A DNA stretch of 34,398 bases, taken from a virus. The stretch is taken from IMG/VR virus record IMGVR_UViG_3300037156_000416, positions 1 through 34,398 of that record. One strand, 5' to 3'. The position numbers were made by a program, and so were the translations under genes. This document shows, one piece after another, positions 12,361 through 28,754 of the stretch (the first letter of the stretch is position 1; each line of letters starts with the position of its first letter). Under the pieces are notes generated by a model that ran no database searches, was not told where the DNA came from, and was given only the letters and a program-made list of their open reading frames with translations.

Positions 12361-12430
12361 TATTAGCTCAAACTTGAGCTGACACATTTCGTAGGTAGAA
12401 CATCATTAAATCTGACAGTCTGGTTTGGCG
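12361..12430 (+). repeat. Cassette end A
   Basis: The sequence begins TATTAGCTCAAACTTGAG and contains AAATCTGACAGTCTGG at 12408-12423. It is about 86 percent identical to end D (28695-28754, minus strand) apart from one 11-base gap. It is about 67 percent identical to end C over 60 ungapped bases. Confidence 0.75.
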
Positions 12431-12535
12431 AAAAACGGACTTCCCAGAGATTTATACACATAGTCTCTTGAACTGCATAGGGAGTACCTGCCATGGTTGT
12501 GGCTATTGTGAGTGCTAGAAAAAATATCTTTACGA

Positions 12536-12564
12536 TTTAGATGGTTGAGTTAAAATTCTATAAT
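12536..12564 (+). promoter_or_regulatory. Predicted sigma-70 promoter for cassette 1
   Basis: TTTAGA (12536-12541) and a perfect TATAAT (12559-12564) are separated by 17 bases. A start near 12571 would transcribe the 23-codon frame and the PIN_8 gene. Confidence 0.45.
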
Positions 12565-12591
12565 TATCTTCAATGAATTAGAGAGAAAATA

Positions 12592-12663
12592 ATGTTTCAG
12601 TTAGGTTCATTTATGGGTGCGGGAGTTTTAATTAATATTGGCTTGGTGGAATTTATCATTTAA
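12592..12663 (+). CDS. Possible 23-aa hydrophobic peptide
   Basis: An ATG preceded by GAGAGAAAATA opens a 23-codon frame encoding MFQLGSFMGAGVLINIGLVE plus three hydrophobic residues. The peptide is almost wholly hydrophobic and could span the membrane once. It ends 21 bases before the preferred start of the PIN_8 gene and lies just after a predicted promoter. It may be a leader whose translation couples to the nuclease gene, a small membrane partner, or a chance frame. Confidence 0.35.
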   Translation: MFQLGSFMGAGVLINIGLVEFII

Positions 12664-12683
12664 ATATCTTATGGGTGACTTAT

Positions 12684-13991
12684 ATGAAAGAAGAATTTAG
12701 TGGGTTTTATGGATTGGAAGAAGAAGAAGTCGAAAATCTTTATCGGAACAAGGAAACAGTTTTTATCTTTGATACTAATATATTACTCAACCTCTATCGC
12801 TGTGAAAAAAAAACCCGCGATACATTTATTTCAATCTGGAAAAGCATGAAAGAACAAGTGTGGGTTCCTTATCATGTAATACTTGAATATCAAAGAAATA
12901 GAATCCAATCTATCGAAGATAATGTTAACGATTTAGATAGTATTCCTAAAGAGCTTGAGTTAAAAACAATTGAAATATTTAATAATTTAAAGAATTCGAA
13001 AAGTTCAACCATATCACGGTATAGTGAACTTAATAAGGAAATTGAAAAGTTAGAAGAAAAGGTAATTGCAGCAGTCAAATTATTCAAAACAAATCAGATT
13101 GAAAAAAGAATTGATTTTATTGATTTAATTAATAAAAAAGACGTCGTGAGAGAATCGCTTGATGGTCTTTTAAGCAACCGAATTGGAAAAGCTCCTAGCC
13201 AAGATGAAATTGACAATATTAACAACAAAGGAAAGCAGAGATATAAAATTAAAACTGGCCCGGGTTTTTCTGATGAGAAAGAAAAATCCAAGTTAGAGAA
13301 TTATAATTTTAATGGAATTGAATACACTCCAATGTTTGGTGATCTATACATATGGCAAGAGATATTAGATTATGTTAAAAATAATCAGCTTAAAAATGTC
13401 ATTTGGGTGTCGAATGATTTAAAAAAAGACTTCATTTACATAACAAATAGAAATAAAAAAAGAGGCGCAAGAGAAGATCTTAGAACTGAAATGAAAATAA
13501 ATTCTGGGTGCCAGAATTTCACTGCGCATTCAATTAAGTCTTTTTTACATCATATAAATAAAGTTTCAACGATAAAGATGAGCGAGAAAGCCATTTCAGA
13601 ATTAATTCAAACAGGAAGGGTGAGTATTTCAGACTCATACTTTATATCTCTAAATGAACCCTATGAAATAGCTGGAGTTCTAACCCGGCAGTTCAAAGGA
13701 TTATCAAGGTTAGCTCATAAATTAAAGTCAATGATAGTTGATCTCAATGAAAAAATCAAAACACACGGTAATGATGGGGACTATATAATGCATCTAAGCA
13801 TGGAAAGTGCGGAGATAGAGCAAAATATTTCTGACGTAAACAAATTATTACTTAAAGTAGTTTCACTTCAAAGTAGATTTAATGAATCTTACGAGAGCGA
13901 TTCATTTAAGAAAGAGTTTCTTGAGTTTTTCAAAGAGTCGTCGTATTACATAAAAACAGCGTATAATAACGACTCGCAAGCATCTATATAA
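12684..13991 (+). CDS. PIN_8-like nuclease domain protein, putative phage defence cargo
   Basis: The 435-residue product begins with a PIN-like domain of the PIN_8 type: FIFDTNILLNLYR (Asp near residue 30), VWVPYHVILEYQRNR (Glu near 67), FGDLYIWQEI and VIWVSNDLKKDF near residues 215-250. Such acidic residues coordinate metal for RNA or DNA cleavage. A helical region separates the early and late motifs, and a helical C-terminal half of unknown role follows. I prefer the ATG at 12684, behind GGGTGA, over a GTG at 12675. The gene is far more AT-rich than its phage neighbours and reads against them, which suggests acquired cargo. Its position suggests anti-phage defence, which the sequence does not prove. 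Confidence 0.8.
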   Translation: MKEEFSGFYGLEEEEVENLYRNKETVFIFDTNILLNLYRCEKKTRDTFISIWKSMKEQVWVPYHVILEYQRNRIQSIEDNVNDLDSIPKELELKTIEIFNNLKNSKSSTISRYSELNKEIEKLEEKVIAAVKLFKTNQIEKRIDFIDLINKKDVVRESLDGLLSNRIGKAPSQDEIDNINNKGKQRYKIKTGPGFSDEKEKSKLENYNFNGIEYTPMFGDLYIWQEILDYVKNNQLKNVIWVSNDLKKDFIYITNRNKKRGAREDLRTEMKINSGCQNFTAHSIKSFLHHINKVSTIKMSEKAISELIQTGRVSISDSYFISLNEPYEIAGVLTRQFKGLSRLAHKLKSMIVDLNEKIKTHGNDGDYIMHLSMESAEIEQNISDVNKLLLKVVSLQSRFNESYESDSFKKEFLEFFKESSYYIKTAYNNDSQASI

Positions 13992-14009
13992 TTAATTGAA
14001 AACACAACC

Positions 14010-14046
14010 ACTTTGGCATACTCAATTAGAATGAATATGCCAAAGT
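14010..14046. terminator. Hairpin after the PIN_8 gene
   Basis: A perfect 11-bp inverted repeat (ACTTTGGCATA / TATGCCAAAGT) with a 15-base loop lies 19 bases past the PIN_8 stop. No T-run follows, so termination is plausible but not certain. Confidence 0.5.
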
Positions 14047-14164
14047 TAAATGACTTACCTATTATTAATGAAATCTTAATTCAAATTTATTTATTTCTGC
14101 CTTATGATCGCTTTATCTAATTTCAAGAATAAGATGGCGATATCCCGACCGTAGATATATCAAA

Positions 14165-14254
14165 GTAGGCAACGTCCGCTTATGGCACAGATCTCCCCGT
14201 CTGATTAGGTTTGGCTCTGTGCCGCAGTTATGTCAGGTGAAGTCTGAGCTAATA
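14165..14254 (-). repeat. Cassette end B
   Basis: Read on the minus strand it starts TATTAGCTCAGACTTCACCT. It is identical to end C (25362-25451) at 74 of 90 ungapped positions. It contains the inverted pair GGCACAGA and TCTGTGCC, which could form a hairpin. The last codons and stop of S lie inside its outer part. Confidence 0.8.
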
Positions 14255-14691
14255 AGTATTAGCAATTCATCTTCCACAATCTTCATATCCTCCGCGTCCA
14301 GCCCTAACAGCGGGCGCGCCGGATACTGCATCTCTTGTGCACGGACGGACGGGCGATCCCGCAGCCCGTACTGATGCACTTTCGCCATCCGTTGAACCTG
14401 GCCGGTGAATTCCACCACCGCGTCGTCAGCGGTGCCTTTGGCTTTCATGTATCTGGCCGTGCGCAGTTTGGCGAACATTTTCCGCTTAATACGGCCTTTC
14501 TTTGCCCGCAGAGGCTGCGGACGGCGCGGCGTGAAGGGCTGCCCTTCCGGCGTGACCTGCTGCTTAATGCGCTGCTGCTGATGTTTGCGCAGACGCTTCG
14601 CAATGGTCGCCGCCATCGCCTTCCGGCTTTGCGGTGACAGCGCGGCAATTAGCCCCGCCAGACGGGTATCAAAGGCTGACAGTTCACTCAT
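14233..14691 (-). CDS. S: Tail completion protein gpS
   Basis: The 152-residue protein matches P2 gpS (150 aa), needed with R to complete the tail at its head-proximal end. It has a basic middle (RKHQQQRIKQQ, RAKKGRIKRKMFAKLRTARYMKAK) and the conserved ARPLLGLDAEDMKIVEDEL near the C-terminus. Its final residues (about ISSDFT) and stop codon are encoded within cassette end B, so the cassette appears to have replaced the original 3' tip of the gene. It overlaps R by eight bases. Confidence 0.93.
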   Translation of the reverse strand: MSELSAFDTRLAGLIAALSPQSRKAMAATIAKRLRKHQQQRIKQQVTPEGQPFTPRRPQPLRAKKGRIKRKMFAKLRTARYMKAKGTADDAVVEFTGQVQRMAKVHQYGLRDRPSVRAQEMQYPARPLLGLDAEDMKIVEDELLILISSDFT

Positions 14692-15151
14692 GCCACTGGC
14701 TCACTAACTCGCCGTGCAGGTAGAGTTCACGCGGCCTTTCCACCGGCTCAGGCAGCGGCGGTTCCGGAAAATGCTCCACGTACAGACCGGCATCAATCTG
14801 TTTCACAATCACGCGCTCGGTGAGCTGCACATCAATCGCGATATCGTAGGAACCATCATCGAGCATATCGGCCTTGAATTTAAAGCCGGTCTGCTGCTTT
14901 TCCGGTGTCGCCATGATGTCCGGCTGGTTCTCACGCAACCACGCCAGGATAGGCACGATAATCAGATCGCAGTCCTGGGAAAAGTTGGTGATCAGCAGTT
15001 CCGTCTGATACTGATATTCAAACGACAGCGAACTGGCTAACGTGGAAACGATGCGGCCATTATCCACAAACATCCGCAGGGTGTCGGGGCTGGTTTGCAG
15101 CACCGGCACCGCGTCAGTTAACGCTTTTCGCAGTTGAGCGGGTTTTAACAC
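14684..15151 (-). CDS. R: Tail completion protein gpR
   Basis: The 155-residue protein matches P2 gpR (155 aa) throughout, including MLKPAQLRKALTDAVPVL, AWLRENQPDIM and a Pro-rich PEPPLPEPVERPRELYLHGE region near the C-terminus. It acts with S in tail completion and head joining. Its start overlaps the end of the Rz1 frame by 38 bases. Confidence 0.95.
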   Translation of the reverse strand: MLKPAQLRKALTDAVPVLQTSPDTLRMFVDNGRIVSTLASSLSFEYQYQTELLITNFSQDCDLIIVPILAWLRENQPDIMATPEKQQTGFKFKADMLDDGSYDIAIDVQLTERVIVKQIDAGLYVEHFPEPPLPEPVERPRELYLHGELVSQWHE

Positions 15152-15404
15152 GGTGTTCCTCCTGGCATTGTTTAACCGCTTCCACCTGGAGGCCGCAGGC
15201 GGTCAGCGCGGCCTCCAGGTTTCTGACATCACTGCTTAAATCGCCGTTAGTGGCCGGTGAGCTTGCCGGTATCGGGCAACTGGTTACCGCCGGACAGCCA
15301 ACGTAAATAATCTGCGGCGCTGGCAAAGGCGGGACGCGCGTGCATCCGGCTAATACCATCAGGCAGACGAGCGCCATACCAGTCACGCATTTCCTGATTT
15401 TCAT
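15114..15404 (-). CDS. lysC: Outer-membrane spanin subunit Rz1 (LysC)
   Basis: The start at 15404 gives a 96-residue lipoprotein precursor: MKIRKCVTG, a hydrophobic segment and a lipobox LAGC near residues 18-21. A Pro-rich stretch follows (TRVPPLPAPQ). An upstream in-frame ATG would bury the signal, so I reject it. The gene starts inside Rz in another frame, the usual nested Rz/Rz1 arrangement. After cleavage, the lipidated Cys should anchor it in the outer membrane, where it joins Rz to fuse both membranes at lysis. Confidence 0.88.
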   Translation of the reverse strand: MKIRKCVTGMALVCLMVLAGCTRVPPLPAPQIIYVGCPAVTSCPIPASSPATNGDLSSDVRNLEAALTACGLQVEAVKQCQEEHRVKTRSTAKSVN

Positions 15405-15672
15405 TAAGTAACCTTTGAATTGTGTATTCACGGACAAGTGCCTGCTCACCCGCCTGTGAGAGCTGGGTGCGCAGGCTTTGTTCCTGGCGTTCGCGCCTCA
15501 GTGCATCATCGTTCAGGCGGTGAATGGCGTTGTCGCGGCTTTCAATACCGGCGGACAGCGTGCCGATGATGCGCTGTGCCTGGTCGGCCTTATCCGTCAG
15601 GCCACTAATCCGCCAGGTTTGCAGCCCCGCCAGCGCGCAGGCGGTCAGCAATAAAATAATCGCAATGCGCAT
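15247..15672 (-). CDS. lysB: Inner-membrane spanin subunit Rz (LysB)
   Basis: The 141-residue protein has an N-terminal membrane anchor (MRIAIILLLTACALAGLQTW), a long coiled-coil periplasmic region (residues of about 25-95) and a WYGARLPDGISRM-type end, as in P2 LysB. It would span the periplasm and pair with Rz1. It overlaps the endolysin stop, so the lysis genes are tightly packed. No separate LysA-type antiholin is seen. Confidence 0.9.
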   Translation of the reverse strand: MRIAIILLLTACALAGLQTWRISGLTDKADQAQRIIGTLSAGIESRDNAIHRLNDDALRRERQEQSLRTQLSQAGEQALVREYTIQRLLNENQEMRDWYGARLPDGISRMHARPAFASAADYLRWLSGGNQLPDTGKLTGH

Positions 15673-16181
15673 CAGACACCCCGCAGGCAGTAGGCCAGCT
15701 CATTCGTGCGGCGGCGCTCCAGGCCGGTGATGCGCTCGCCGTTCACAAACACCCAGCGCGGTAACTGTTCGCAGGCGTCCCGCCATTGCCCCTTGCTGAT
15801 AAAAAACGCCAGCGTGGATTTACACGCCGCCGTCACGCCAACGTTGAACGCAAACGACACCACGGCGTCATACACCGGCTGCGGCATGGTAACCGGCATA
15901 CAGCGCGCAATGCCTTTCTCCACCCGCATCACGTCTTCCACCAGGTTAACGGCGGCCTGCCGTTCGCTGATTTGCGTCTGCGGCTTCACGCCTGCGGTGT
16001 GCCCGATGCCGTTTGTCCAGACGCCCGCGCTGCACTGATAGGCGGACAGGCGGCAGCCTTCAAAATCGGCAATCAGTGCCAGACCGGCGGCGGAGGTTTT
16101 CAACGTTGGCGTTTGCGGCAGCAGCGCGGCAATTGCCAGGACGGCAGCGACGGCGCAGCGTCTAACGATTGATGGCTGCAT
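15672..16181 (-). CDS. K: SAR endolysin, GH24 lysozyme (gpK)
   Basis: The 169-residue muramidase cleaves peptidoglycan at lysis. The catalytic pattern E-8-C-5-T is visible in FEGCRLSAYQCSAGVWTNGI, with Glu near residue 41, Cys near 50 and Thr near 56; the Asp of T4 lysozyme is replaced by Cys, a known variant. The N-terminus is hydrophobic and Ala-rich (VAAVLAIAALLP), which fits a signal-arrest-release anchor: inactive while membrane-tethered and active once released. It sits between holin and Rz and overlaps both. Confidence 0.9.
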   Translation of the reverse strand: MQPSIVRRCAVAAVLAIAALLPQTPTLKTSAAGLALIADFEGCRLSAYQCSAGVWTNGIGHTAGVKPQTQISERQAAVNLVEDVMRVEKGIARCMPVTMPQPVYDAVVSFAFNVGVTAACKSTLAFFISKGQWRDACEQLPRWVFVNGERITGLERRRTNELAYCLRGV

Positions 16182-16377
16182 TAATATCCCCTCTGACGCC
16201 CATTGCTTTCAGCAGGCGGTAGGTTTTGCGCCGGTAGTACCAGTTCACCAGGAAAGTCGCGACGCCGACGCCTGCCCCCACCAGAAAGGCGATATCCTGC
16301 GGTGACATTGCGCCGAGCCAGGCAAGAAAGGCCGCGACGCAGTAACAAATAAACGAGGTGATGCGCTCCATGGTCAT
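16162..16377 (-). CDS. Y: Holin (gpY position)
   Basis: A small protein of about 71 residues has two hydrophobic segments (SFICYCVAAFLAWLGAM and IAFLVGAGVGVATFLVNWY) followed by a basic tail (YYRRKTYRLLKAMGVRG). This fits a class II holin, probably the HP1-type family. It would depolarise or permeabilise the inner membrane and free the SAR endolysin. The start is taken at the ATG overlapping the X stop (TGATG); MERITS six bases later or an ATG at 16386 are also possible. Confidence 0.82.
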   Translation of the reverse strand: MTMERITSFICYCVAAFLAWLGAMSPQDIAFLVGAGVGVATFLVNWYYRRKTYRLLKAMGVRGDINAAINR

Positions 16378-16580
16378 CAGTCCCAAAGTGAGACGGTTTC
16401 ACTGACTGCGGCCAGGCTTATGTCCGGCAGCTCCACCGCGTAGCCATGGGGCAAAATTGCCCCGCGAGCGGCTAAGCCAACGTTAGCCGCGTAAACCTGT
16501 TCCATCACCGACTCGGTACGCCCGTAATACCGCCAGCAGAGCGAATCCACGGTGTCGCCTTGTTCGGCATAGACTTTCAT
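16377..16580 (-). CDS. X: Tail protein gpX (LysM-like)
   Basis: The 67-residue protein matches P2 gpX (67 aa), a small tail protein with a LysM-like fold: MKVYAEQGDTVDSLCWRYYG followed by YAANVGLA and PHGYAVELPDI. I set the start at the ATG overlapping the L stop, since the upstream extension has no similarity. It connects the head genes to the lysis genes in the O-to-S operon. Confidence 0.93.
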   Translation of the reverse strand: MKVYAEQGDTVDSLCWRYYGRTESVMEQVYAANVGLAARGAILPHGYAVELPDISLAAVSETVSLWD

Positions 16581-17050
16581 CAGAGCAGCCCGATGATGCA
16601 GTGGGATACACCGGCAACGTCGCTGATCGCGTTGCGCCCGTCCCGCCATAAATCATCCACCGTGCTTTCCACGATTTCGGCCTTTTTGCTGCCCTTGTCC
16701 GTGGTGTCGTTATTCGGGTAACGCTCCGCCAGGAAGGCCGCCGCAATAGACGCCACGGCGCGCTGATAGGCGCAAACCTTCACGCTTTCATCATCAATCT
16801 GATCGGCAGGAACATCAGCCAGGCGTTTAAAGCCCTGGGCAATTTGCGCATCGCGAAAGCTGTACAGCTCGGCGTTCACTTCGGTCATGGCAAACTTTGC
16901 GGCGGCGCGCAGGCGTTTTGCCGTGACGGTGCCCTCCAGTCGCAGGGTGTCGCGCAGCTCAACCGGATCCACATCAGGCCAGAAATGGGTGTTTTTAATC
17001 GCGGGTTCCGTCGCGGCGTCCGGTTTCGGTGCAGGTACAACAAGAGACAT
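16580..17050 (-). CDS. L: Head completion protein gpL
   Basis: The 156-residue protein matches P2 gpL (169 aa), which finishes the filled capsid and forms part of the connector. It includes FWPDVDPVELRDTLRLEGTVT and the YQRAVASIAAAFLAERY region. It follows M after a gap of about 95 bases and overlaps X at its stop. Confidence 0.93.
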   Translation of the reverse strand: MSLVVPAPKPDAATEPAIKNTHFWPDVDPVELRDTLRLEGTVTAKRLRAAAKFAMTEVNAELYSFRDAQIAQGFKRLADVPADQIDDESVKVCAYQRAVASIAAAFLAERYPNNDTTDKGSKKAEIVESTVDDLWRDGRNAISDVAGVSHCIIGLL

Positions 17051-17145
17051 AGTGACCTCTGAATGGGGGGCGGTGGACGCCAGCGTTGAACGAAGTCAAA
17101 GACCCGTCGCGGCTGGCGTGCCGCCCTGCGCGGGGCGCATGCTTT

Positions 17146-17802
17146 TTAGCTGCCGGATGCCTTTTTAATGGCGGATTCCAGGCGCTCAATGTCTTTTTTA
17201 ACGCCTGATTTGCCATCAAGAATGAGTGCACTTTTCAGACGTTCCAGGGCTAACGTGTCCTTGCCGCCGTCGCGGTAGAGATAGCCGATAATCTTGTGCA
17301 ACTGCGCACGGACTTTATCGGGCATATCTTCGCTGTCAGTCAGTTCCAGCACCTCCTGCATCAGGTCGATACTGACCGCCTCACCGGCAGCGCGGGCACG
17401 GGCGGCCTGGTCGATCACTTCCTCGGTGAAGGCACAGCCCGCCGTGCGGGTGCCGAACGGCATCGCGAGCCGGTGCTTAAAGGCGTAGCGGGCAATGTTC
17501 AGCGCACCGGCAATATCACCGGCGTCAATCCGCCAGATCATCACGGTCATAAGGATGGCGTCCTGTGCGCCGTTCCCTTCGGCGAGCACGCCCGACACCC
17601 ACGGGGCGTATTCAGGTAGCAGCTTGCGTTTCAGCTCCGCTTTGGCCTGGAAGGACTGGAGCTTGTGCAGTGCCTGTTTATCCGCATTCAGCTTTTGCAT
17701 TTGCAGTTCGTAGCCGGTGGCATGGGTCAGCTGACCGGCGGCCTGCTGTGCGGCGATGATGGCGGACTGTCGCAACATGTGACGACGGCAAGGGCTAATC
17801 AT
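17146..17802 (-). CDS. M: Terminase small subunit gpM
   Basis: The 218-residue protein matches P2 gpM, the terminase subunit that works with gpP in cos cutting and DNA packaging. Conserved parts are SPCRRHMLRQSA, LLPEYAPWVSGVL, ILMTVMIWRIDAGDIAGALNI and DMPDKVRAQLHKI. P2 gpM is 247 residues and ends in a long basic Pro/Lys-rich tail; this one stops after GVKKDIERLESAIKKASGS, so the tail is missing. The gene follows N by 11 bases. Confidence 0.94.
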   Translation of the reverse strand: MISPCRRHMLRQSAIIAAQQAAGQLTHATGYELQMQKLNADKQALHKLQSFQAKAELKRKLLPEYAPWVSGVLAEGNGAQDAILMTVMIWRIDAGDIAGALNIARYAFKHRLAMPFGTRTAGCAFTEEVIDQAARARAAGEAVSIDLMQEVLELTDSEDMPDKVRAQLHKIIGYLYRDGGKDTLALERLKSALILDGKSGVKKDIERLESAIKKASGS

Positions 17803-17813
17803 GACGTCCCCCT

Positions 17814-18878
17814 TTATTCCGCTGATTCAGGCGCGGCAGCTTTGAAGGTGCCGAGCTGGATGTTTTCGACCAGGCAGCCGCCGCGATAGTCTTCCACCAC
17901 GAAATCCTCATTAATGGATTCGTAGTTTTCGATACGGTCACGCTTCGGCACTTCTTCGATGTGGCGGCGGTGCGTGCCGTCCTGCCAGTAAATGGACAGG
18001 TTATCCAGGCGGGTGATCATGAAGGCTTTGGCCGGGAAGCCGGGCACGCGCACCGCCGGTAAGTTACCGATGCGCTTCTGGCTGATAATCATATCCGCCG
18101 CCAGGCTTTCGGAGTTCTCCTGCGCCTTGTTCACCAGCGGGAAATACTTGTCTGCCAGCAGCTGACGGCCGCAGATCACCACCAGGCCGGTATCGTCCTG
18201 ATAAATCGGGTCAACCATGTTGTTGGTGGCGTCCATCACCAGCGCGTCCAGGTTCTCAAAGTCGCCCCCGGCACCGACACGGACAGTCTCGGAAATCACG
18301 GCATCATCCTCACCGAGAATTTTGCTCATCACGCGCTCCGGCGCATTGTTGCGGTACTTTTGCAGCCAGCCCACGTTCACGTCCTGCAACAGCGGGTATT
18401 TAGCGCGGTCTGAGGTTGCCGCACGCTTGACGCCGTTAAAGCCGATGGTGATGCGGTCCAGTGCCTGACGTTTCACGATGGCGTCACGTAAACGCGCCTG
18501 GAAATCCTGGTAACGCGCCCACAAATCCAGCGTGGCGTAACGGAAATGGAAATCGTAGTTCGTCTGGCGGCACTCGTAGCCCTCAGCGGTCAGGGTGTTG
18601 AAGTCAGCGGTTTTACGCTCCCCCTCGCCGGTGGTGTCCGCCGTGCTGGCAATGGAGCCGGAGACGCCTACGCCGACCTTTTCCCCCTTCATTTCGTCCA
18701 CGGGGATGATGTTAATCATCTGGAGGAAGGCGGAAGATTCCTGTACGCGGGTCATCAGCGTCTGCGTCACCGACGGCTCCACGCTGAATTTTTTATCCAG
18801 GTCGCCGGTGTCCACCGAGTTCAGCTCAGCAATGCGGGACAGGTAGGCGTTAAATTGAAAACGGGTAGTTTGTTTCAT
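17814..18878 (-). CDS. N: Major capsid protein gpN
   Basis: The 354-residue protein matches P2 gpN (357 aa, HK97 fold). It starts MKQTTRFQFNAYLSRIAELN and contains the RYATLDLWARYQDFQ segment and GFNGVKRAATSD. In P2 the first 31 residues are removed by gpO during maturation; a comparable N-terminal arm is present here. It lies between scaffold O and terminase M. Confidence 0.96.
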   Translation of the reverse strand: MKQTTRFQFNAYLSRIAELNSVDTGDLDKKFSVEPSVTQTLMTRVQESSAFLQMINIIPVDEMKGEKVGVGVSGSIASTADTTGEGERKTADFNTLTAEGYECRQTNYDFHFRYATLDLWARYQDFQARLRDAIVKRQALDRITIGFNGVKRAATSDRAKYPLLQDVNVGWLQKYRNNAPERVMSKILGEDDAVISETVRVGAGGDFENLDALVMDATNNMVDPIYQDDTGLVVICGRQLLADKYFPLVNKAQENSESLAADMIISQKRIGNLPAVRVPGFPAKAFMITRLDNLSIYWQDGTHRRHIEEVPKRDRIENYESINEDFVVEDYRGGCLVENIQLGTFKAAAPESAE

Positions 18879-18924
18879 GCTTTTTTTTCCAAATTTGTTA
18901 ACGGGTTAATCGCGAGTGTTGTAC

Positions 18925-19776
18925 TTAGCAGTCGGTGAAATGGGCTGCATCACCTTTGCCGCCGCCGCTTGAAACAGGGCGCTGCGTGTAGCTCTGCGGC
19001 GCGGACTTCTCCAACTTGCCTTTCAGCGTGCTGAACTGTTCGCGGTCATCTTTCGCGGTTTGTTCCAGCGCGTTCAGACGTTCCGTCACGGTAACTTCCA
19101 GCGCAGACAGCTTTTCATCGCTGGCTTTCAGGCCGGTTTCGACGTGTTCCACCACCACTTCAACGGCGTCATGCACGTCTTTAAACCGGGCATCATCCGA
19201 GGCGGATCTGCTGGACAGCAGTTGTTTCACGCGGGAGAACAGCGACGGGGCAGCCGGTGCTTCTTCCACAAACTCGAACGCCGTTTCTTCGGCAGCGGTA
19301 AAGAGGTTTCCGGCATCCTGTTTGCGGCCAGCCAGCGGGTTTTGCTGTGCCTTCGCGCTGAATTGCAGGTACTCGGTGCCAAGGCTGGCGGGGCTGTCGG
19401 TCACGGCCAGGCCGATCAGGTAGGCTTTGCCGGTATCGGAAAACGAGGGGTTCACTTCGATGGAGGTGTAAACCTTCTGGCGGGCTTTCACCATTGAGAC
19501 TAAATCCGGCGTCGGGTCGATATCAGCATACAGTGCCAGCTTGCCTTTCAGGGCACCGTCCGCCACTTCTTCGGCGTAAACGCCGGTGACATCGCCGTAC
19601 ATACGAAACGCACTGTCAGGGAAATACCCCTTGATGTGTTCCATGTTGATGCGTGCGCCGTAGACCTTCGGGTCATAGGTCGCCGCCATCTGTTCGATCC
19701 AGTCGCGGGTAATTTCGCGTCCGTCGGTTGTCGCCCCTTCGGTGCAGATGCGAAAACGCTTCGCTTTTGTTGCCAT
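18925..19776 (-). CDS. O: Capsid scaffold and maturation protease gpO
   Basis: The start at 19776 (MATKAKRFRI) gives 283 residues (P2: 284) and follows GGAG at eight bases. The N-terminal half is a serine protease: likely catalytic Asp18, His47 (INMEHIKG) and Ser105 (VYTSIEVNP) match Asp19, His48 and Ser107 of P2 gpO. The C-terminal half (residues of about 165-265) is helical and acts as scaffold for the procapsid. A 17-residue upstream extension is open but has no family similarity. Confidence 0.95.
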   Translation of the reverse strand: MATKAKRFRICTEGATTDGREITRDWIEQMAATYDPKVYGARINMEHIKGYFPDSAFRMYGDVTGVYAEEVADGALKGKLALYADIDPTPDLVSMVKARQKVYTSIEVNPSFSDTGKAYLIGLAVTDSPASLGTEYLQFSAKAQQNPLAGRKQDAGNLFTAAEETAFEFVEEAPAAPSLFSRVKQLLSSRSASDDARFKDVHDAVEVVVEHVETGLKASDEKLSALEVTVTERLNALEQTAKDDREQFSTLKGKLEKSAPQSYTQRPVSSGGGKGDAAHFTDC

Positions 19777-19851
19777 GTTTATTACTCCAGTCGGTGTGGC
19801 TTCTGAGAAATCTAAGTTTCCGGACACACGCCCGACACCGCCAGCCGATGC

Positions 19852-21686: not shown

Positions 21687-21688
21687 TC

Positions 21689-22720
21689 ATGAGTAAGCGC
21701 AAATTCTGCAAACCGGCATCAACTACCGTTACAGCAACGAGGCAGCAGACAAGCGGCGCGGAGGCGTTCAGCTTTGGCGACCCGACGCCGGTGTTAGACC
21801 GCCGTGAAATCCTGGATTACATCGAATGTACGGGGAACGGCCAGTGGTATGAGCCGCCGGTCAGCTTTGACGGCCTGGCCCGTACGCTGCGGGCAGCGGT
21901 GCATCACAGTTCATCGCTTTACGTGAAGCGTAATATTCTGGCCTCGACCTATGTCCCGCACCCGCTGCTATCACAGCAGGAATTCAGCCGGTTTGCCCTG
22001 GATTATCTGGTATTCGGGAATGCGTTTTTGGAAGTGATCCGCAACCAGCTCGGCGATGCCGTGGTGATGAAAACCGTGCCCGCCAAATATGCGCGACGCG
22101 GCGTGGAGCCAGATACTTACTGGTTTGTGCAGCAGTGGAAGGATGCCCATCAGTTCGAGGCGGGCAGCGTATTTCATCTGATTGAGCCGGACATTAATCA
22201 GGAGCTGTACGGCCTGCCGGAATACCTCAGCGCGCTGAACTCAGCCTGGCTGAATGAGGCCGCGACGCTGTTCCGCCGCAAATATTATCAGAACGGTGCT
22301 CACGCCGGATATATCCTGTACATGACCGACGCGGCACAAAGCAGCTCGGACATCGATCAGATGCGCAAAGCGATGCGGGACACTAAAGGGCTGGGCAACT
22401 TCCGCAACCTGTTCATGTACGCACCCAACGGCAAGCCTGACGGGATCAAGATTCTGCCGTTAAGTGAAGTCGCAACCAAAGACGATTTCTTTAATATTAA
22501 GAAAGCCAGCCAGAACGATTTGCTGTGCGCGCACCGCGTGCCGCCTCAGATGATGGGCATTATCCCGGAGAACAGCGGTGGGTTTGGTGATTCGGTGAAG
22601 GCATCGCAGGTGTTTGTCCGGAATGAGCTGACACCGTTGCAGGAAAGGTTTAAAGAATTGAATGCGTGGTTTGGAGAAGATGTGATTAAATTTACTGCGT
22701 ATGAACTGACACCAGAGTAG
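21689..22720 (+). CDS. Q: Portal protein gpQ
   Basis: The 343-residue protein matches P2 gpQ (344 aa), the dodecameric portal through which DNA enters and leaves the head. Typical stretches are AFSFGDPTPVLDRREILDY, YLVFGNAFLEVI, EYLSALNSAWLNEAATLFRR and KKASQNDLLCAHRVPPQMMG. It follows P by two bases in a two-gene operon opposed to the other late genes, as in P2. Confidence 0.96.
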   Translation: MSKRKFCKPASTTVTATRQQTSGAEAFSFGDPTPVLDRREILDYIECTGNGQWYEPPVSFDGLARTLRAAVHHSSSLYVKRNILASTYVPHPLLSQQEFSRFALDYLVFGNAFLEVIRNQLGDAVVMKTVPAKYARRGVEPDTYWFVQQWKDAHQFEAGSVFHLIEPDINQELYGLPEYLSALNSAWLNEAATLFRRKYYQNGAHAGYILYMTDAAQSSSDIDQMRKAMRDTKGLGNFRNLFMYAPNGKPDGIKILPLSEVATKDDFFNIKKASQNDLLCAHRVPPQMMGIIPENSGGFGDSVKASQVFVRNELTPLQERFKELNAWFGEDVIKFTAYELTPE

Positions 22721-22727
22721 GACTGCA

Positions 22728-22747
22728 AAGCCCCGAATACAGGGCTT
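22728..22747 (+). terminator. Hairpin after Q
   Basis: AAGCCC and GGGCTT form a six-base stem with an eight-base loop just past the Q stop. A second small hairpin (TAAGCT / AGCTTA) follows. There is no long T-run. It could end P-Q transcription. No P2-like cos sequence could be recognised nearby. Confidence 0.45.
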
Positions 22748-22850
22748 AAGCTAACTTTTAAAAGCTTAGTCTTATTAGTTCACACCTAAAACGGTAAGTA
22801 GGCTAAGGATGCGTGAATACTATATAGCCTTTAGCTTGGAAAGAAATTTC

Positions 22851-23852
22851 TCAAACGAATTTACAATATTTTTCGATGAAATCTTTTGAGTTGCAGACCA
22901 TAGTTTTACAACCAACGTATGCAAAGCAAGCCATAGCTTTCTTACGGAATTTATTATCGTTTGAAATTAAAAAATCAGCACCTAAAGCAGATGAAACATG
23001 CTGCATGTCTCTATTTGAGGCATTAAATCGATCTTTAGATTTTCTATTCTTAGTGAAGTCATCTGCATGGTATCCAGCCCAATTCATCAGGCTGTAAGCG
23101 CGAACCACCTCTGATTGAACAGTACTATCAAAATACTGTTCCAAAGAAAAATCGCAATTCTCCTGTTTGAATATTCTTTCGATTACATCAACAACGTGAT
23201 TTATTTCTACATTTTCAATATTTAGTGATTTTACCCCAATTGTTTCACGGAACGGTTTTGGTCCTAGCGCTTGCTCATTATTTATTTCTAAGGCTTTTAA
23301 ATTTTCAATTCTTTCTCTAAATTCTTTTATTATCTCAGTGAGATGTATGACCTGCTCTTCTTCGAGAGAAGTAAAACCATCCGAATTTATCAGAGGTATA
23401 TGGGCTTCACATTGTGCTATTAAAAAAGTTAATCTATCCTTTAACATATTGTTAATCTCATCGAAACTTTCTTCAACCAACAATCCTGATAATTTTCGAG
23501 AAAGAAGTTGATTGATATACATCAATGAATCAATCCCCATTTCATTGTTGGATTTGATTATCCCCAAGTATTCATTCCATATGCTTTCAGGACTAGTTTT
23601 CTTTAGCTGGCATGTTAGAGGTTCAATGTATTGAGCCGATAACTCCATTAAAACTTCGATATGCTCTTGCTGATATTCTATTTTTTCTATTTGTAAAATC
23701 TCTTCAAGATTGACATATGAGTATACTACCGTGACGTGTTTTGATTTCAGAGCGAATTTTAATAGTTTAAACTCTTTTTTTGCAATACTATCAATTTTTT
23801 TCTGACGTAAATCACTTAAAATATTTTGGTCTAAATATATAATAGTGCTCAT
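22851..23852 (-). CDS. PIN-like domain protein, putative nuclease (accessory)
   Basis: The start at 23852 (MSTIIYLDQNILSDL) follows GAGGAG at about six bases and gives 333 residues; an 11-residue upstream extension is rejected. The PIN-type pattern is IIYLDQN (Asp8), YSYVNLEEIL (Glu50/51), then near the C-terminus NRDMQHVSSALGADFLISND with two Asp residues and an Asn before the final strand. The middle is helical, and I cannot assign its role. It lies downstream of a different PIN gene on the same strand, so the two may be co-transcribed. Both are AT-rich cargo between Q and A. A defence role is inferred from position. Confidence 0.7.
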   Translation of the reverse strand: MSTIIYLDQNILSDLRQKKIDSIAKKEFKLLKFALKSKHVTVVYSYVNLEEILQIEKIEYQQEHIEVLMELSAQYIEPLTCQLKKTSPESIWNEYLGIIKSNNEMGIDSLMYINQLLSRKLSGLLVEESFDEINNMLKDRLTFLIAQCEAHIPLINSDGFTSLEEEQVIHLTEIIKEFRERIENLKALEINNEQALGPKPFRETIGVKSLNIENVEINHVVDVIERIFKQENCDFSLEQYFDSTVQSEVVRAYSLMNWAGYHADDFTKNRKSKDRFNASNRDMQHVSSALGADFLISNDNKFRKKAMACFAYVGCKTMVCNSKDFIEKYCKFV

Positions 23853-23939
23853 TACTTCTCCTCGCAGTTTTTTTAAAATTTTCATTGGAAGACGTGATTT
23901 TCTGCTTTAAGCTAATGAAAATTTTTACTGAGGGGACTA

Positions 23940-24941
23940 CTAAGTATCTAACATATCCCACTCATCTCCGAGCACCCATCTTAAAGCAGATAGTTTACCA
24001 TTGACCATCCCCCACTCAAAATCATCCCAAGGCCCAGTGTCTTCATATCTTTCTTCAACTTTCGCTGCTGATAACTTAGCACCCTCCCAAATGTCCTCGT
24101 GAATTAAATTATTAGCATGACGAGGATCACCTTTAGGAATTAAAGTAATCTCACCTATTTCAATTTTATACTCTCTATACTTATGACGGTTAAACCAAAC
24201 CTTTTCGCAATACTCATTGATTGCAGTGAGTATATCCGTTAAGCTCCTGGTATCATCTTCCAACCAATTAAACTCATCTTCAAGCTCGCTTAAAAGATCG
24301 GGTTCAATGCTGTTTATAGCATCCGTAATATCTAAATGATAGTGGGCGTTTTTAGAAAAAATCTCGTCAAAATCCGGATGAGGATTACGCCTGTCCGTTA
24401 ATGAACTAAAATCAGTGTAGTTTTCTGTGACGAAATGAAATGTTCCATCCTTATCCTTCATAAAGTCATTGAATAGTTCTATTAATATAGAATCTGCAAC
24501 GCTATTTTTAGAACGGTGAAAAGGTGCTTTCTTTTCTAATGCTCTTGTTACAGCTTTTAATCTAACTAACTCACTATCCTGAAGGTAAATACACTTATCC
24601 ATTAGAGATTCTATCATGTGTGCTGTATGACCTGTAACCTCACTGAGAATAGGCAATCTGCTTCCGACATCATTTAATACATTTAGTGCCAATTCTTTAT
24701 TTTCGCCACCATAAGTCCCAATTATTTTTTTTATTTTATGAAACTCTGAACCAACTTGTTGCTTAGTGGCTTCAATTACTCGTTCTTTATTTCTGAGGAA
24801 TTCTGTTTTCACCAAGGTTGGGACAACTATTGCAGTATTGTTCTTATCAATCAATTGATTAAATGCTTCAAGTAGAGCATGTTGGTTCTTAGATTTTGCT
24901 ATAGTCAGCCAAACACAGGTATCTATAAAGAGATAATGCAT
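23940..24941 (-). CDS. PIN domain protein, DUF4935-like (accessory)
   Basis: The 333-residue protein starts MHYLFIDTCVWLTIAKS with a PIN active-site Asp7. Glu47 follows in PTLVKTEFLRNKERV, then Asp150 in KNSVADSILIELF and acidic residues in FHFVTENYTDFS. This arrangement fits the DUF4935 (PIN_12) type of putative RNase. The C-terminal third is acidic and helical. No strong ribosome binding site precedes the ATG. A TTGCCA-17-TAAGAT promoter lies just upstream. It is followed on the same strand after 87 bases by a second PIN-type gene of another subfamily. Confidence 0.75.
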   Translation of the reverse strand: MHYLFIDTCVWLTIAKSKNQHALLEAFNQLIDKNNTAIVVPTLVKTEFLRNKERVIEATKQQVGSEFHKIKKIIGTYGGENKELALNVLNDVGSRLPILSEVTGHTAHMIESLMDKCIYLQDSELVRLKAVTRALEKKAPFHRSKNSVADSILIELFNDFMKDKDGTFHFVTENYTDFSSLTDRRNPHPDFDEIFSKNAHYHLDITDAINSIEPDLLSELEDEFNWLEDDTRSLTDILTAINEYCEKVWFNRHKYREYKIEIGEITLIPKGDPRHANNLIHEDIWEGAKLSAAKVEERYEDTGPWDDFEWGMVNGKLSALRWVLGDEWDMLDT

Positions 24942-24974
24942 ATTTTATATCTCATAAATTACGAATATGCCTTA

Positions 24975-25003
24975 ATCTTAATCTTTAGGCAGACTGATGG
25001 CAA
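24975..25003 (-). promoter_or_regulatory. Predicted promoter for the PIN gene pair
   Basis: On the minus strand TTGCCA (25003-24998) and TAAGAT (24980-24975) are 17 bases apart. The predicted start near 24968 leaves a leader of about 27 bases before the PIN gene at 24941. Confidence 0.4.
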
Positions 25004-25233
25004 TAAATCACTTTCTCGATGTTGACGTGTACTTGCCTAGAGATCTTTATGCCCCACCTATCACTCCACATCACTTAAGCTCCATACGGGAAGCATCTTT
25101 CAGAAACAGTGAAATAATCGGCAGAAATGGAAAGCTCCCCTTCGTCCGGCTATTTGCGTTTTTGGAGGCTCTGTACCTAGGCGCGCGCAATGTTACCCGC
25201 CTGCCCGCTTCTGACTTAGCTCACCGTTTTTAA
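24997..25233 (+). CDS. Doubtful 78-aa hypothetical frame
   Basis: An open frame encodes MAINHFLDVDVYLPRDLYAP and continues to LPASDLAHRF. It is richer in GC than the PIN genes beside it, so it may be a remnant of older sequence. The upstream AGG is weak and the start overlaps the predicted promoter of the PIN pair. I do not recognise a family. It may be a fragment or a chance frame. Confidence 0.25.
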   Translation: MAINHFLDVDVYLPRDLYAPPITPHHLSSIREASFRNSEIIGRNGKLPFVRLFAFLEALYLGARNVTRLPASDLAHRF

Positions 25234-25361
25234 TGCATCACTAAGATCGCAGCAAAGTAAGGCGATAGGGGTGATCAGGTGTTTTTTGATCCTCTAGGGG
25301 GCATGCAAAACCATGCGCATAATGCATGCATGGCTCTGCCATATGACCGCGCTCGATACAG

Positions 25362-25451
25362 TATTAGTTCAGAATTGACCTGACACAACTACGGCACAGA
25401 ACCAAAGCGAATCTGACAGGCAGCTCTGTGCAATGAGCGGACGTTGCTAAC
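25362..25451 (+). repeat. Cassette end C
   Basis: It begins TATTAGTTCAGAATTGACCT and is identical to end B at 74 of 90 ungapped positions. It carries AATCTGACAG at 25409-25418, also found in ends A and D, and the GGCACAGA...CTCTGTGC inverted pair. Confidence 0.8.
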
Positions 25452-25459
25452 GTCCGCTC
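25435..25459. terminator. Perfect 11-bp hairpin at the inner edge of end C
   Basis: GAGCGGACGTT and AACGTCCGCTC are separated by GCT. It lies about 195 bases past the HNH stop and could stop transcription in both directions, though no T-run follows. End B keeps only one arm. Confidence 0.55.
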
Positions 25460-25654
25460 TGTAATTATTATAATGGTGCAGGTCATTTCTCATACGCTTT
25501 AATCAAGAATTAAATCTTTCAGCACAGTGCTACATAATTTCCTTCTGAATGCACCGAAGAATTTTCCGGTTACCAGAATAACCAAACAAGCTGAAACTGA
25601 TTATTTCTGATTACGCCGAATCAATTTCTAAATCCTAGTCATCTTAACCACTAA

Positions 25655-26518
25655 TTAAATTTTTCTAGGTTTTACTTGGGGGTCAAATTTGTCAAACCCG
25701 CCTTCAATATACCACCTTTCTTTAAGTAACTTAGTATACAATGCAAATTCCCATGAGTCGGGCCTATGTGCTACACCTTTTAAATAAATTCCAATTTCCG
25801 ACGCAACCCCATCCCAATCTTTAGGCTTGATCATTTCGTGAAAGGAATTCTTCATGTCATGTAATTTAACTAGCGCATGGGAAGTGTAAAGTTCATTTAG
25901 CTTTAATCTTGAAAAATGGCTTTTTAGCTTAGCTAAAATTACCTTGCTAATTTTATCATCTTCAATGCATTGAAAGCTTATTTCTATTGGATCCATATTT
26001 AAGAACACCATTTCTATCCAAGTACATTTGGAAAAATCATCATAATATGGATGAATAAACTGTTTATTAACCATATTAGGCATGGTATGTCTTTTCTTTT
26101 TATTACACCGTGAACATATAGGGACTAAGTTTTTTGTATAAACCGAAAATTCATAATAGCTATTTTTTGGAAGATGATGATCAAGTTCTGTGACAGTACT
26201 CTCTGCACACATCGGACACTTTAAAAAAAGAGGCGAAGCTAAAATTCGCTCATAAATGTCGCGGCAAATGCCTTGTGCGCCCACAAATTGCTCTGTATAG
26301 AGCTTTTCCATGTAATTTTGGTCAAAATTTCCTGACGGATTAGATCGTGGTATGTTTATCACATTGCCATTAGCCATTTCATTATGGAAATCATTGAATT
26401 TATTCGCCAAGAAACATTTCATCTGTGCGATTTCTTGAGGCGTTACTATACCTTTTGCCCGCGCGCAATCTTCAAAAATCTTCAGATCATTTTCATTTGG
26501 ATAAGGAATAAAGTACAT
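25655..26518 (-). CDS. HNH endonuclease, Septu PtuB-like
   Basis: The 287-residue protein has a zinc-stabilised HNH domain at residues of about 100-142: CPMC (Cys101/104), TELDHHLPKNSYYEF (Asp113, His114/115), an Asn in TKNLVPICSRC (Cys135/138) and a basic NKKKRH end. Such domains nick or cut nucleic acid. The gene starts one base after the ATPase stop (TAAcATG), so translation is coupled. An AAA ATPase followed by an HNH protein is the plan of the Septu (PtuA/PtuB) anti-phage system and of some retron effector pairs; no reverse transcriptase is nearby. The function is inferred from family and context. Confidence 0.78.
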   Translation of the reverse strand: MYFIPYPNENDLKIFEDCARAKGIVTPQEIAQMKCFLANKFNDFHNEMANGNVINIPRSNPSGNFDQNYMEKLYTEQFVGAQGICRDIYERILASPLFLKCPMCAESTVTELDHHLPKNSYYEFSVYTKNLVPICSRCNKKKRHTMPNMVNKQFIHPYYDDFSKCTWIEMVFLNMDPIEISFQCIEDDKISKVILAKLKSHFSRLKLNELYTSHALVKLHDMKNSFHEMIKPKDWDGVASEIGIYLKGVAHRPDSWEFALYTKLLKERWYIEGGFDKFDPQVKPRKI

Positions 26519-26519
26519 G

Positions 26520-28094
26520 TTAGCCCTCGTTTTTTTTAATTTTTAATAGTGAACGAGCTAATGCACGGCCCTCCGCTCCTAACTTTTCTTCAAAGTAATT
26601 ATAAAGAGCGTCAAAATCATCAAACTTTTCTACTGCATCGGTGACCATTTTGTAAAAACCAGTGTTGGTCACTTCATGATTAAAAACTTCCCCTGTAAGA
26701 GTGCCAACATTTTCACCGAATGTATCAATTTGTGGCCTATTAGCTTGAATATAACGTCTAGTCCTATTCAATATCCATGCACAGTCTGAACGAACCTCCT
26801 GAAGTACGACTGGCGAATGTGTTGCAACAATAGCAACACCATTTCTATCGCTCATAAGGTCTGAAACAGCACGGATATAGGCAGAAATTAATGGTGGATG
26901 TAAATGTGCCTCTGGTTCATCAATTAAAGTTAGAGATCTATCTTCTGTTACTTCAACTAGTTTTGTAATACTGATTAAAGTAACTAAATGTCCAGAGCTA
27001 AATCTATTGAGATATTTATGCATTTCATTTTTCCATTTCTCATCATAAAAGAGAATGTTTGAATCTGCAAGTTTGGAAATCTCTACCTCTTTAAATAACG
27101 GATCATTTTCGAGAGTTTGCAAACATGCCTTCCACCTTTCTTTTCTAGCTCCAACTAAACATTGAATCATGCTGGTACAAAATTCATTGTGCAAAGTATC
27201 AAAAGATTTTGGAATTAGCCGCTCATCTTCTTTTGACTTTTCCATCAAACCTATATACTGATATTTAATTCCTGTTGGAATTTTATTTACTCCAACTGGA
27301 CCAAATTTGTCGAATGGGCTGTATGACAGTAATGTTAATGATGTAAAATAATCAGGCTTACGAAACAATTTTCCATCTTCCGATACCAGAAGCCATCCAG
27401 CGAATTCTTCAGGGATAGCATCTTGGTTGATGACGCCTTTGATAAATCCGGCGAAAAGAGTTGTTTTCCCGACCCCATTCCTTCCAATAATAGCGTGAAT
27501 GTTACTTGGTGGTACTGAATTAGGTTGAATACTAAAATCTAAGATAACGCTTTTGTCTTGGTGGTCTTTGTAGGGAAACATATAGGCAAAACTGTACTTA
27601 TCCGATGAACTATCACCTTTAGCCAATTTATGCAATGCGTCAAAAATATGCCTCTCGCTAATATCACGCATTACCGAATTTGTCATTGCAGGATGTAACT
27701 TATGATCCTCATAGATACGCAGGTTATATGCAACATCCCTTAAACCTAGTAATATCTCTCTTTTAACAGCCTTCGGAAGTTGATTAAGTGTTTCATAGTA
27801 GTTCTCACTTTGCCCTAAGGAAAAGAATTCTTGGTCTAATGTGTTAAACTCATTATTTATTAATGGCTTATTAAATGTCTGCTTTTCTTCATCATTAATA
27901 CATTCACTCTCAGGCTTCATCCTATTTTGACCAATCTTTACTGAACCAATACCTGTGACTTTTGTGGCATTTTCACAATACACCAAACTAAATTGAGTTT
28001 GCCAATAAAACCAATCATTCCAGTTATCTCTTATTAAATAGGCGGTGTTTGGTTGCCATGTGCTGGGTGAAGAATCGATTTTTATAAATTTCAC
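26520..28094 (-). CDS. AAA/ABC-type ATPase, Septu PtuA-like
   Basis: The 524-residue protein has Walker A GRNGVGKTT (residues 204-212), a signature-like FSSGH (365-369), Walker B SLTLIDEPEAHLHP (387-400) and a H-switch THSP near 427, the pattern of OLD/PtuA-like AAA ATPases. About 200 residues precede the first motif. No TOPRIM domain is seen, so it is not an OLD nuclease. The start is GTG at 28094, behind an excellent AAGGAG at five bases. It is the first gene of a two-gene operon with the HNH nuclease. It probably senses infection and licenses the nuclease. Confidence 0.8.
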   Translation of the reverse strand: MKFIKIDSSPSTWQPNTAYLIRDNWNDWFYWQTQFSLVYCENATKVTGIGSVKIGQNRMKPESECINDEEKQTFNKPLINNEFNTLDQEFFSLGQSENYYETLNQLPKAVKREILLGLRDVAYNLRIYEDHKLHPAMTNSVMRDISERHIFDALHKLAKGDSSSDKYSFAYMFPYKDHQDKSVILDFSIQPNSVPPSNIHAIIGRNGVGKTTLFAGFIKGVINQDAIPEEFAGWLLVSEDGKLFRKPDYFTSLTLLSYSPFDKFGPVGVNKIPTGIKYQYIGLMEKSKEDERLIPKSFDTLHNEFCTSMIQCLVGARKERWKACLQTLENDPLFKEVEISKLADSNILFYDEKWKNEMHKYLNRFSSGHLVTLISITKLVEVTEDRSLTLIDEPEAHLHPPLISAYIRAVSDLMSDRNGVAIVATHSPVVLQEVRSDCAWILNRTRRYIQANRPQIDTFGENVGTLTGEVFNHEVTNTGFYKMVTDAVEKFDDFDALYNYFEEKLGAEGRALARSLLKIKKNEG

Positions 28095-28260
28095 TTTAAC
28101 TCCTTAATAGATGTTAAGGCTTGTTGTCACTTTTAAAATAACTAGTTATGTTTTTTATCAAGACTAATTTAAATAATTTCTATATACATCTCCCTGAGAA
28201 GATGTGTGCAGCTCAAGTTTAAATTGAAAAAATATTTTTTTGAGCTAGAAACTGACTTTC

Positions 28261-28276
28261 GAAAACGATCGTTTTC
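28261..28276. repeat. Perfect 16-bp palindrome
   Basis: GAAAACGATCGTTTTC is self-complementary. It shares the GAAAAC...GTTTT core with crossover sites of Hin/Gin serine invertases, and a serine recombinase remnant lies about 120 bases away. It could equally be an operator. Confidence 0.45.
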
Positions 28277-28295
28277 AGAAATTTGTCATAACCCG

Positions 28296-28327
28296 TATGC
28301 GAAATCAAGTGTTTTACATTTCGCATA
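28296..28327. repeat. Perfect 10-bp inverted repeat
   Basis: TATGCGAAAT and ATTTCGCATA flank a 12-base spacer. The arms and spacing suit a dimeric DNA-binding protein or a hairpin. Confidence 0.55.
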
Positions 28328-28394
28328 TAGTTTGTGAAAAGTACACGTATTATGTATCTAAAGTAACTATATATCACGATTTTTTCTTACTTCA

Positions 28395-28670
28395 GTGTTT
28401 CTGCCCTTGAACAAAATAGAGAAACAAGTGCCGAGAAATCAAAGCGGTAGGTTTTTGACATTCAGGATCGGTGACTCATTAAGGAATATATCACTGCTTC
28501 GGGACTGTTTGAGAATGCCAAGTTATAAGCGTCTAATTAAAAAGCTGGAGCGTGGTGATATTCTGATTGTGACGAAGCTAGACCAACTAGACCAACTAGA
28601 CCAACTAGACCAATCAGGGGGGATACTACTGACTGTTCCCGAGGACTGTGCAGTAACTCATCATCGGTGA
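28395..28670 (+). pseudogene. Decayed serine recombinase (resolvase/invertase) fragment
   Basis: A 91-codon frame contains PSYKRLIKKLERGDILIVTK followed by LDQL. This matches the motif in the catalytic domain of serine recombinases that normally reads R-P-x-x-K/Q-L...GD-x-L-V-V-x-K-L-D-R-L. The N-terminal catalytic Ser motif (Y-x-R-V-S) and the rest of the protein are absent. The point where LDRLGRS should occur is replaced by DQL repeats from a 9-base tandem array. It is probably not functional. It lies next to cassette end D. Confidence 0.6.
28578..28613 (+). repeat. Four perfect copies of a 9-base repeat
   Basis: CTAGACCAA is repeated four times without mismatch and encodes repeated LDQ within the recombinase remnant. 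It looks like slippage expansion in a decaying gene. Confidence 0.85.
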
Positions 28671-28694
28671 TAGCACTGACTAACTTCTGTTCCT

Positions 28695-28754
28695 CGCTCA
28701 ATCCAGACTGTCAGATTTGATGATGTTTTACCTCGGATCAAGTCTGAACTAATA
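28695..28754 (-). repeat. Cassette end D
   Basis: On the minus strand it starts TATTAGTTCAGACTTGA and contains AAATCTGACAGTCTGG (28718 down to 28703), identical to end A. It matches end A at about 49 of 57 positions with one 11-base deletion. It ends five bases before the stop of gene A. Confidence 0.75.

Follow-up and report, generated by a model that had tools for sequence, protein, structure and literature searches.

Two cassettes with related ends in a P2-type virus

The DNA analysed here is a 34,398-base stretch from a virus (IMG/VR record IMGVR_UViG_3300037156_000416, positions 1-34,398; hereafter the window) with a P2-type gene set comprising FII (5006-5515), V, R, S, gpA and an integrase (33397-34398). 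Two cargo cassettes lie in it, each bracketed by a pair of related end sequences. Cassette 1 is located between homologues of the P2 genes V (baseplate assembly protein; 11630..12271, minus strand), its left neighbour, and S (14233..14691, minus strand), and is bounded by end A (12359..12440, plus strand) and end B (14174..14256, minus strand). Cassette 2, at the gpA-cos site, is bounded by end C (25360..25442, plus strand) and end D (28685..28756, minus strand). A and D belong to one type, here called R, and B and C to the other, called L, and every cassette has one end of each type, as the first-pass annotation of this DNA had noticed. The terminal dinucleotide is an intact TG in D, and AA, CT and AG in A, B and C, respectively. 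D has an internal 11-nt deletion. Gene S runs into end B, which contributes the last 24 nt of S, that is, its final codons and the stop codon.

Cargo 1 is a 438-amino-acid protein with a PIN_8 domain (PF18476; 12675..13991, plus strand; Pfam E-value 9.2e-43), for which PADLOC gave no match at 1e-3. Cargo 2 consists of an HNH-endonuclease-like protein (25655..26518, minus strand; PADLOC PDC-M01B) and a Septu-like ATPase resembling PtuA and PDC-M01A (26520..28094, minus strand; PADLOC E-values 1.3e-178 for PDC-M01A and 9.6e-153 for PtuA). The partner of the ATPase also matched an HNH PHROG, and no PtuB-named model was among its matches listed (25 of 43 families).

The likeness among the four ends is far from chance. 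B and C agree at 74 of 90 ungapped positions and A and C at 40 of the first 60, both as counted before, and A and D at 52 of 59 around the 11-nt gap, where about 49 of 57 had been reported. Within the window, blastn E-values were 4e-20 (B/C), 8e-8 (A/D) and 4e-5 (A/C), and a profile to which these four contributed along with many other ends scored A to D at E-values of 3.6e-20 to 2e-13. All four were present at the cargo edges where they had been described and were the only strong profile matches in the window, the next being at 13.6 bits (E-value 0.0016). The motif AATC(T/A)GAC was confirmed at an offset of 48 in A, B and C, and starts at offset 37 in D. The sequence TATTAG(C/T)TCA, previously taken as the outer boundary, is present, but the true termini lie 2 bases further out, at 12359, 14256, 25360 and 28756. 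The L ends of the two cassettes are 81% identical and the R ends 85%, so neither cassette is a recent copy of the other. The L end contains an inverted repeat, GGCACAGAG...CTCTGTGCC.

A family of paired left and right ends

We assembled 195 loci, the window included, from two pattern scans of IMG/VR (at least 119 stretches and 94) and from named records; where single ones have to be told apart, they are given by handles such as L184. The L and R labels came from profiles seeded with A to D and three records of the Z region. The iterated profile found 323 ends in these loci, 171 of type L and 152 of type R. They formed 122 consecutive convergent pairs spanning 640 to 6,015 bp, and every pair combined an L end with an R end (62 LR and 60 RL), with no LL and no RR pair; 12 of the 122 pairs depend on one end below 45 bits, and 2 of the 244 labels have a margin below 10 bits. 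The other 79 ends (323 minus the 244 in pairs) were unpaired. The pairs, 85 of which are located at Z, group into 81 insert clusters, which supports the earlier suggestion of one chassis with swapped cargo. A BLAST search of phage records with end A matched annotated repeats in P2-EC58 and P2-EC46, where the label is 'right inverted repeat', and in P2-EC30, where the repeat has no label. When the ends were aligned with these repeats of the P2 Z/fun region, A and D fell with the right ones, and B and C with the left ones.

The ends were also found in bacterial DNA. One end pattern matched 10 contigs of the genome collection, and the R end of L092 matched 2,437 of 5,426 Escherichia coli genomes at an E-value of 0.1, in 1,220 of them over at least 80% of the query; some of the shorter matches will be termini of the IS481 family of insertion sequences (ISs). 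The R model found a match under strict filters in 23 of 394 Enterobacterales genomes, a count that is not used for frequency claims.

Single records held further end-like sequences. In E. coli B (L193 3987-4378), an L end beside nanQ adjoins an open reading frame (ORF) of 102 amino acids annotated 'transposase' and a DUF1016 fragment, and several end matches in other records overlie a 'transposase' annotation. A Serratia contig (L203 5342-5386) matches the first half of the end only, and a contig of a Nitrosomonas metagenome-assembled genome (L205 598-662) matches weakly (21.6 bits); both may represent other relatives of the element. The genome of L208 (G010:C6:437564-470322) has five R-end model matches within 33 kb, possibly several cassettes in an island. 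An additional L end in the same orientation in L066 (8359-11493) and in L124 (6568-7870) suggests nested or leftover ends. Partial L ends lie beside a GTPase/Ag43 locus in L196 and L197 (4960-5035), and in L196 the opposite side carries a frameshifted reverse transcriptase.

Termini, target duplications and kinship with IS481

Except at Z and S-V, the cassette junctions have the form TGTATTAGCTCAG...CTGAGCTAATACA and often lie between direct 7-mers. At 14 independent virus sites, the two flanking 7-mers matched at 7/7 positions in eight, 6/7 in two, 5/7 in two, 4/7 in one and 3/7 in one. This count takes the best row per site, with L059 standing for three rows and L184 for four, the window among the latter, and 37 of the 122 rows had been dropped from the scan for having a terminus with under 9 of 13 bases matched. 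Matches of at least 6/7 thus occurred at 10 of the 14 sites; with shuffled partners the mean was 0.92 and the maximum 7 in 5000. Six pairs in bacterial genomes, not all at independent sites, gave 7/7 in four, 6/7 in one and 5/7 in one. At the gpA-cos site, L184 has CATCATT on both sides of its cassette, and L081 and L165 match at 6/7. The window keeps only the gpA-side copy (28757..28763), which lies at the 3' end of gpA and contains the gpA stop codon; the copy outside end C is missing. A terminal TG at both ends was seen in 43 of 49 clear cases at Z, 12 of 16 at other sites, 2 of 4 at gpA-cos and 0 of 10 at S-V. Since A, B and C do not end in TG, cassette 1 appears unable to transpose now and cassette 2 probably is as well, and both window cassettes are probably immobile.

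Similar termini were found on plasmids, where 753 records matched the R end, 679 of them at 90-95% identity. Among the plasmid matches listed, 50 of 60 extended over no more of the R end than nt 1-29 or 1-32, and in all five such regions that were opened an IS481-family element or remnant begins at that terminus. These five IS481 sequences are 95-100% identical to the copy in L239, two being full length and the rest fragments. A close IS481 transposase was found in 14 of 197 Enterobacterales genomes. Terminal inverted repeats of the IS481 family begin with TGT, and the cassette termini at independent sites (TGTATTAGCTCAG, set against TGTATTAGCTCAGACCTGATCTGACAG in IS481) were found to be inverted repeats of this kind. 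The terminal 27-29 nt, the 7-bp duplication and a preference for NNTNANN targets are common to the cassettes and an IS481-family insertion sequence. A perfect 7-bp duplication, different each time, flanked 24 of the 32 IS481 copies with both flanks, a count in which L242 and one end of L246 were mis-set. T at position 3 together with A at position 5 was present in 24 of 25 IS481 target sites (the 24 duplications plus TATGATG of L246, with L239 and L244 being the same insertion) and in 8 of 9 cassette duplications, against a cassette-flank background of 0.082 (P 1.7e-8). These nine are the 7/7 sites only, and include L198, which is 7/7 by eye and absent from the 14. An inner ATCTGACAG copy in the ends may be a second transposase binding site.

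The cassettes themselves do not encode this transposase. A tblastn search at an E-value of 1e-3 with one IS481 transposase as the query, with other transposase families outside the test, found none in the 122 inserts or the 195 loci. No autonomous copy was found among the cassettes by tblastn or among the 25 commonest of the 129 Pfam families in 150 proteins.

Most ends follow the site and not the cargo

When ends with different cargo were compared, within-site identity of the L ends was.898 at Z,.862 at S-V and.822 at gpA-cos, with.73-.81 between sites. For R ends, the values were.867,.878 and.847, with.73-.82 between sites. Among the window ends, the nearest relatives of A and B are S-V ends of other phages, and that of D is the gpA-cos end of L184 (.902), with an end from an unrelated site at.901. 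The difference of within-site minus between-site identity over nt 1-27, 28-45 and 46-83, calculated for 50 Z, 12 S-V and 4 gpA-cos cassettes, was.20,.13 and.09 for L and.23,.29 and.05 for R, and about 0 just inside the cargo. Cargo, in turn, was found at more than one site: L050 (Z) and L063 (S-V) carry cargo that is 75% identical over 1,624 nt, and L044 and L170, at different sites, have 960 nt of cargo in common at 96.6% with L ends that are 74% identical. The simplest reading of this within-site likeness of the ends, together with cargo common to different sites, is that the ends are resident and that crossovers within them bring in new cargo. Exchange of cargo by homologous recombination through the ends, which the first-pass annotation had given as its alternative, is thus favoured.

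Defence-like cargo

One cargo protein per insert was compared with PADLOC-DB at 1e-5, and 15 of 30 matched, including the borderline L076 and L085, the latter over a short N-terminal stretch taken for a helix-turn-helix; the other 15 did not. The 30 proteins came from S-V (9), Z (1; L050, standing for the cluster of L063), gpA-cos (3), other sites (16) and a bacterial genome (1; L200), with the window cargo not included; the remaining Z inserts were scanned only as a pool, and L177 has a larger ORF than the one tested. A defence role of the cargo is suggested by these matches.

Two genes outside cassette 2, beside end C (22851-24941, minus strand), encode a 344-amino-acid protein of no named family and a PIN_12 protein. 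Neither matched in a PADLOC search. At its N-terminus, the PIN_12 protein has a further match, to the PIN_8 family to which cargo 1 belongs.

Relatives with and without the ends

In PSP3, 186, Yersinia 201.16 and Erwinia ENT90, the S-V gap is 68-73 nt long and holds no end, so the ends are not standing S-V sequence in these four relatives, whose S-V junctions gave no sign of the ordinary phage sequence that would have counted against the chassis. Reference P2 has one end pair, around fun(Z) (15266-15358 and 17433-17524). At S-V and gpA-cos it has no strong end, a 9.4-bit match at 31570-31620 being at the level of noise (E-value 0.19). In the Klebsiella phage ST147-VIM1phi7.1 (ST147phi7.1; L251 13903-13986), there is a single end, upstream of V, with no partner on the downstream side of S; it may be what is left of a decayed cassette.

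Origin and exchange of the cassettes

The ends are paired and asymmetric, have TG...CA termini and 7-bp duplications at independent sites, and have a target preference in common with the transposase-bearing IS481 group, whose transposase is absent from the cassettes. We consider it likely that the four sequences of the window delimit, on the left and on the right, two non-autonomous IS481-type transposons around defence-like cargo, which were founded by transposition and then exchanged their cargo through homologous recombination. Founder copies at S-V, gpA-cos and Z/fun would have been placed by an IS481-family transposase supplied in trans, after which the cargo at each site would have been swapped mainly by homologous recombination through the resident ends. 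The S-V copy in the window, with both termini mutated, would be a poor substrate for transposition and act as a fixed swap platform. The gpA-cos copy, with one terminus mutated and one copy of the duplication lost, would probably be a poor substrate as well and serve in the same way.

Several points weigh against this reading. The duplication at gpA-cos in the window matches at 0/7 positions, no good duplication was seen at the Z and S-V sites, with only a few Z rows among those listed, and 4 of the 14 virus sites match at only 3 to 5 of 7. Exact patterns of the joined site for five sites gave 0, 0, 1, 0 and 0 contigs. The sole empty junction was in L255, which has 96.8% identity with the right flank of L059 over 600 nt and 20 nt across the junction, and whose left flank is rearranged, about 0.8 kb away. 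BLAST with two joined E. coli sites revealed none without the insert: of 688 records, 0 reached 80% coverage of the L195 join, and the insert was present in all ten matches listed for L198. Only about the first 29 nt of the cassette ends resemble IS481; the inner part has no equivalent in the IS481 copies examined, so that the actual partner element may be a relative not yet seen. For end C, a tie to its site is not clear: its mean identity is.817 to gpA-cos ends and.816 to S-V ends, and its best match is the S-V end of L075 (.901). The site effect in the R ends shows no smooth fall, and selection on the inner part of the end could also cause the differences between segments. Transposition itself is deduced from sequence.

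A wider claim can be made only tentatively, and we regard it as doubtful: that the ends belong to a dedicated cassette system for defence genes across Enterobacterales, with asymmetric IS481-derived ends whose inner ~55 nt would be selected for orientation-true exchange, and with entry by transposition almost anywhere and later swapping in P2-like, lambda-like and chromosomal sites. Against such a system, no end was found beside the S-V cargo of P2 (orf30), its gpA-cos cargo (old and tin) or the regulator and reverse transcriptase that Yersinia 56.17 carries at S-V. The earlier proposal that the ends explain cargo at both P2 hotspots may hold for the window cassettes but not for these phages, nor for ST147phi7.1 with one end at S-V in place of two, and hotspot cargo is only partly explained. 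The proposed polarity from the A/D end to the B/C end fared similarly. It is correct for both window cargoes, but not a property of the chassis, since among 81 distinct inserts, scored on mechanical ORFs of at least 150 amino acids, 34 read from R to L, 30 from L to R, 12 were mixed and 5 had no large ORF.

A site-specific recombinase that acts on the ends and moves the cassettes by conservative recombination is an unlikely alternative to IS481-type transposition. Many cargoes share one insertion point in Z, the L end has its inverted repeat, and a passage in PMC8987985 gives site-specific recombination for fun, citing Nilsson et al. 2004. However, the varied 7-bp duplications and the IS481-like termini point to a DDE transposase, and no recombinase was among the 25 commonest Pfam families (129 in all) of the 150 proteins. 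Nor did the L hairpin behave as a conserved structure, with 0 of 6 predicted pairs showing compensatory change, and the R alignment gave no pairs. Integron attC-like folding was rejected on the same counts, which are weak evidence where columns hardly vary. The grouping of most ends according to site rather than cargo would also fit homologous recombination alone, with conserved phage spacer DNA as the crossover handle and no transposon origin. This is very improbable, as the sequences are absent at S-V of the four cassette-free relatives, the same ends occur with 7-bp duplications at unrelated phage and bacterial sites, and the termini are found on plasmids without P2 genes. It is hardly conceivable that the ends are regulatory elements for cargo expression (late-promoter, Ogr-type or terminator sites): the activator site of the P2 V promoter, 42-69 nt upstream of V, is near the position of end A, but the late-promoter or Ogr reading was rejected as the same ends are not confined to the vicinity of P2 late genes and cargo runs in either direction without preference.

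How different defence genes repeatedly reach the same few places in phages is the question that the IS481-type ends address. They offer a route in two steps, transposition in trans with a 7-bp NNTNANN duplication and then homologous exchange inside the ends, and provide a sequence handle for finding defence genes, given the PADLOC-DB matches among the cargo proteins.

Comparison with known systems

In mobile insertion cassettes, IS ends surround unrelated genes and the transposase is supplied in trans. The cassettes described here resemble such transposase-less IS derivatives in having IS-type ends, passenger genes, direct target repeats and no IS481 transposase, and would be mobilised in trans by a related transposase. 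They differ in the many members of the family, the fixed L/R asymmetry and the residence in phage hotspots. IS481 insertion sequences (for example, the copies in NZ_CP117569 and NZ_CP097871) are like the cassettes in the terminal 27-29 nt, TG...CA, the 7-bp duplications and NNTNANN, but they contain the transposase within ~1.2 kb, whereas the cassettes are without it, have conserved ends of ~83 nt and span 0.6-6 kb. Tn7-like transposons also spread defence genes, according to PMC8649781, and the cassettes differ from them in having other ends and no IS481-type transposase.

Both the P2 hotspots and the repeats at Z/fun were already known. The first-pass annotation had recorded neither the Z/fun copies nor the 7-bp duplications, nor the kinship with IS481. 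Cassette 2 is located in the gpA-gpQ defence hotspot of P2-like phages presented in PMC9122126, which speculates on recombination at cos and in whose main text the term 'inverted repeat' occurs 0 times. No description of IS481-type defence cassettes was found in the titles and abstract beginnings of the literature retrieved, and one may already be in Nilsson 2004 or Odegrip 2006. Within the literature surveyed, the IS481-type ends with 7-bp duplications, the presence of the chassis at unrelated sites as well as at three P2 sites, and the finding that most ends follow the site and the cargo does not, are apparently new. The closest precedent is the set of P2 Z/fun repeats (AJ512676, AJ512680 and AJ512683), which are like those of the window in having homologous L and R ends over ~80 nt, the same pairing and varied cargo. 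Those records concern the Z region only, whereas the chassis in the window occupies S-V and gpA-cos and has the kinship to IS481 and the 7-bp duplications.

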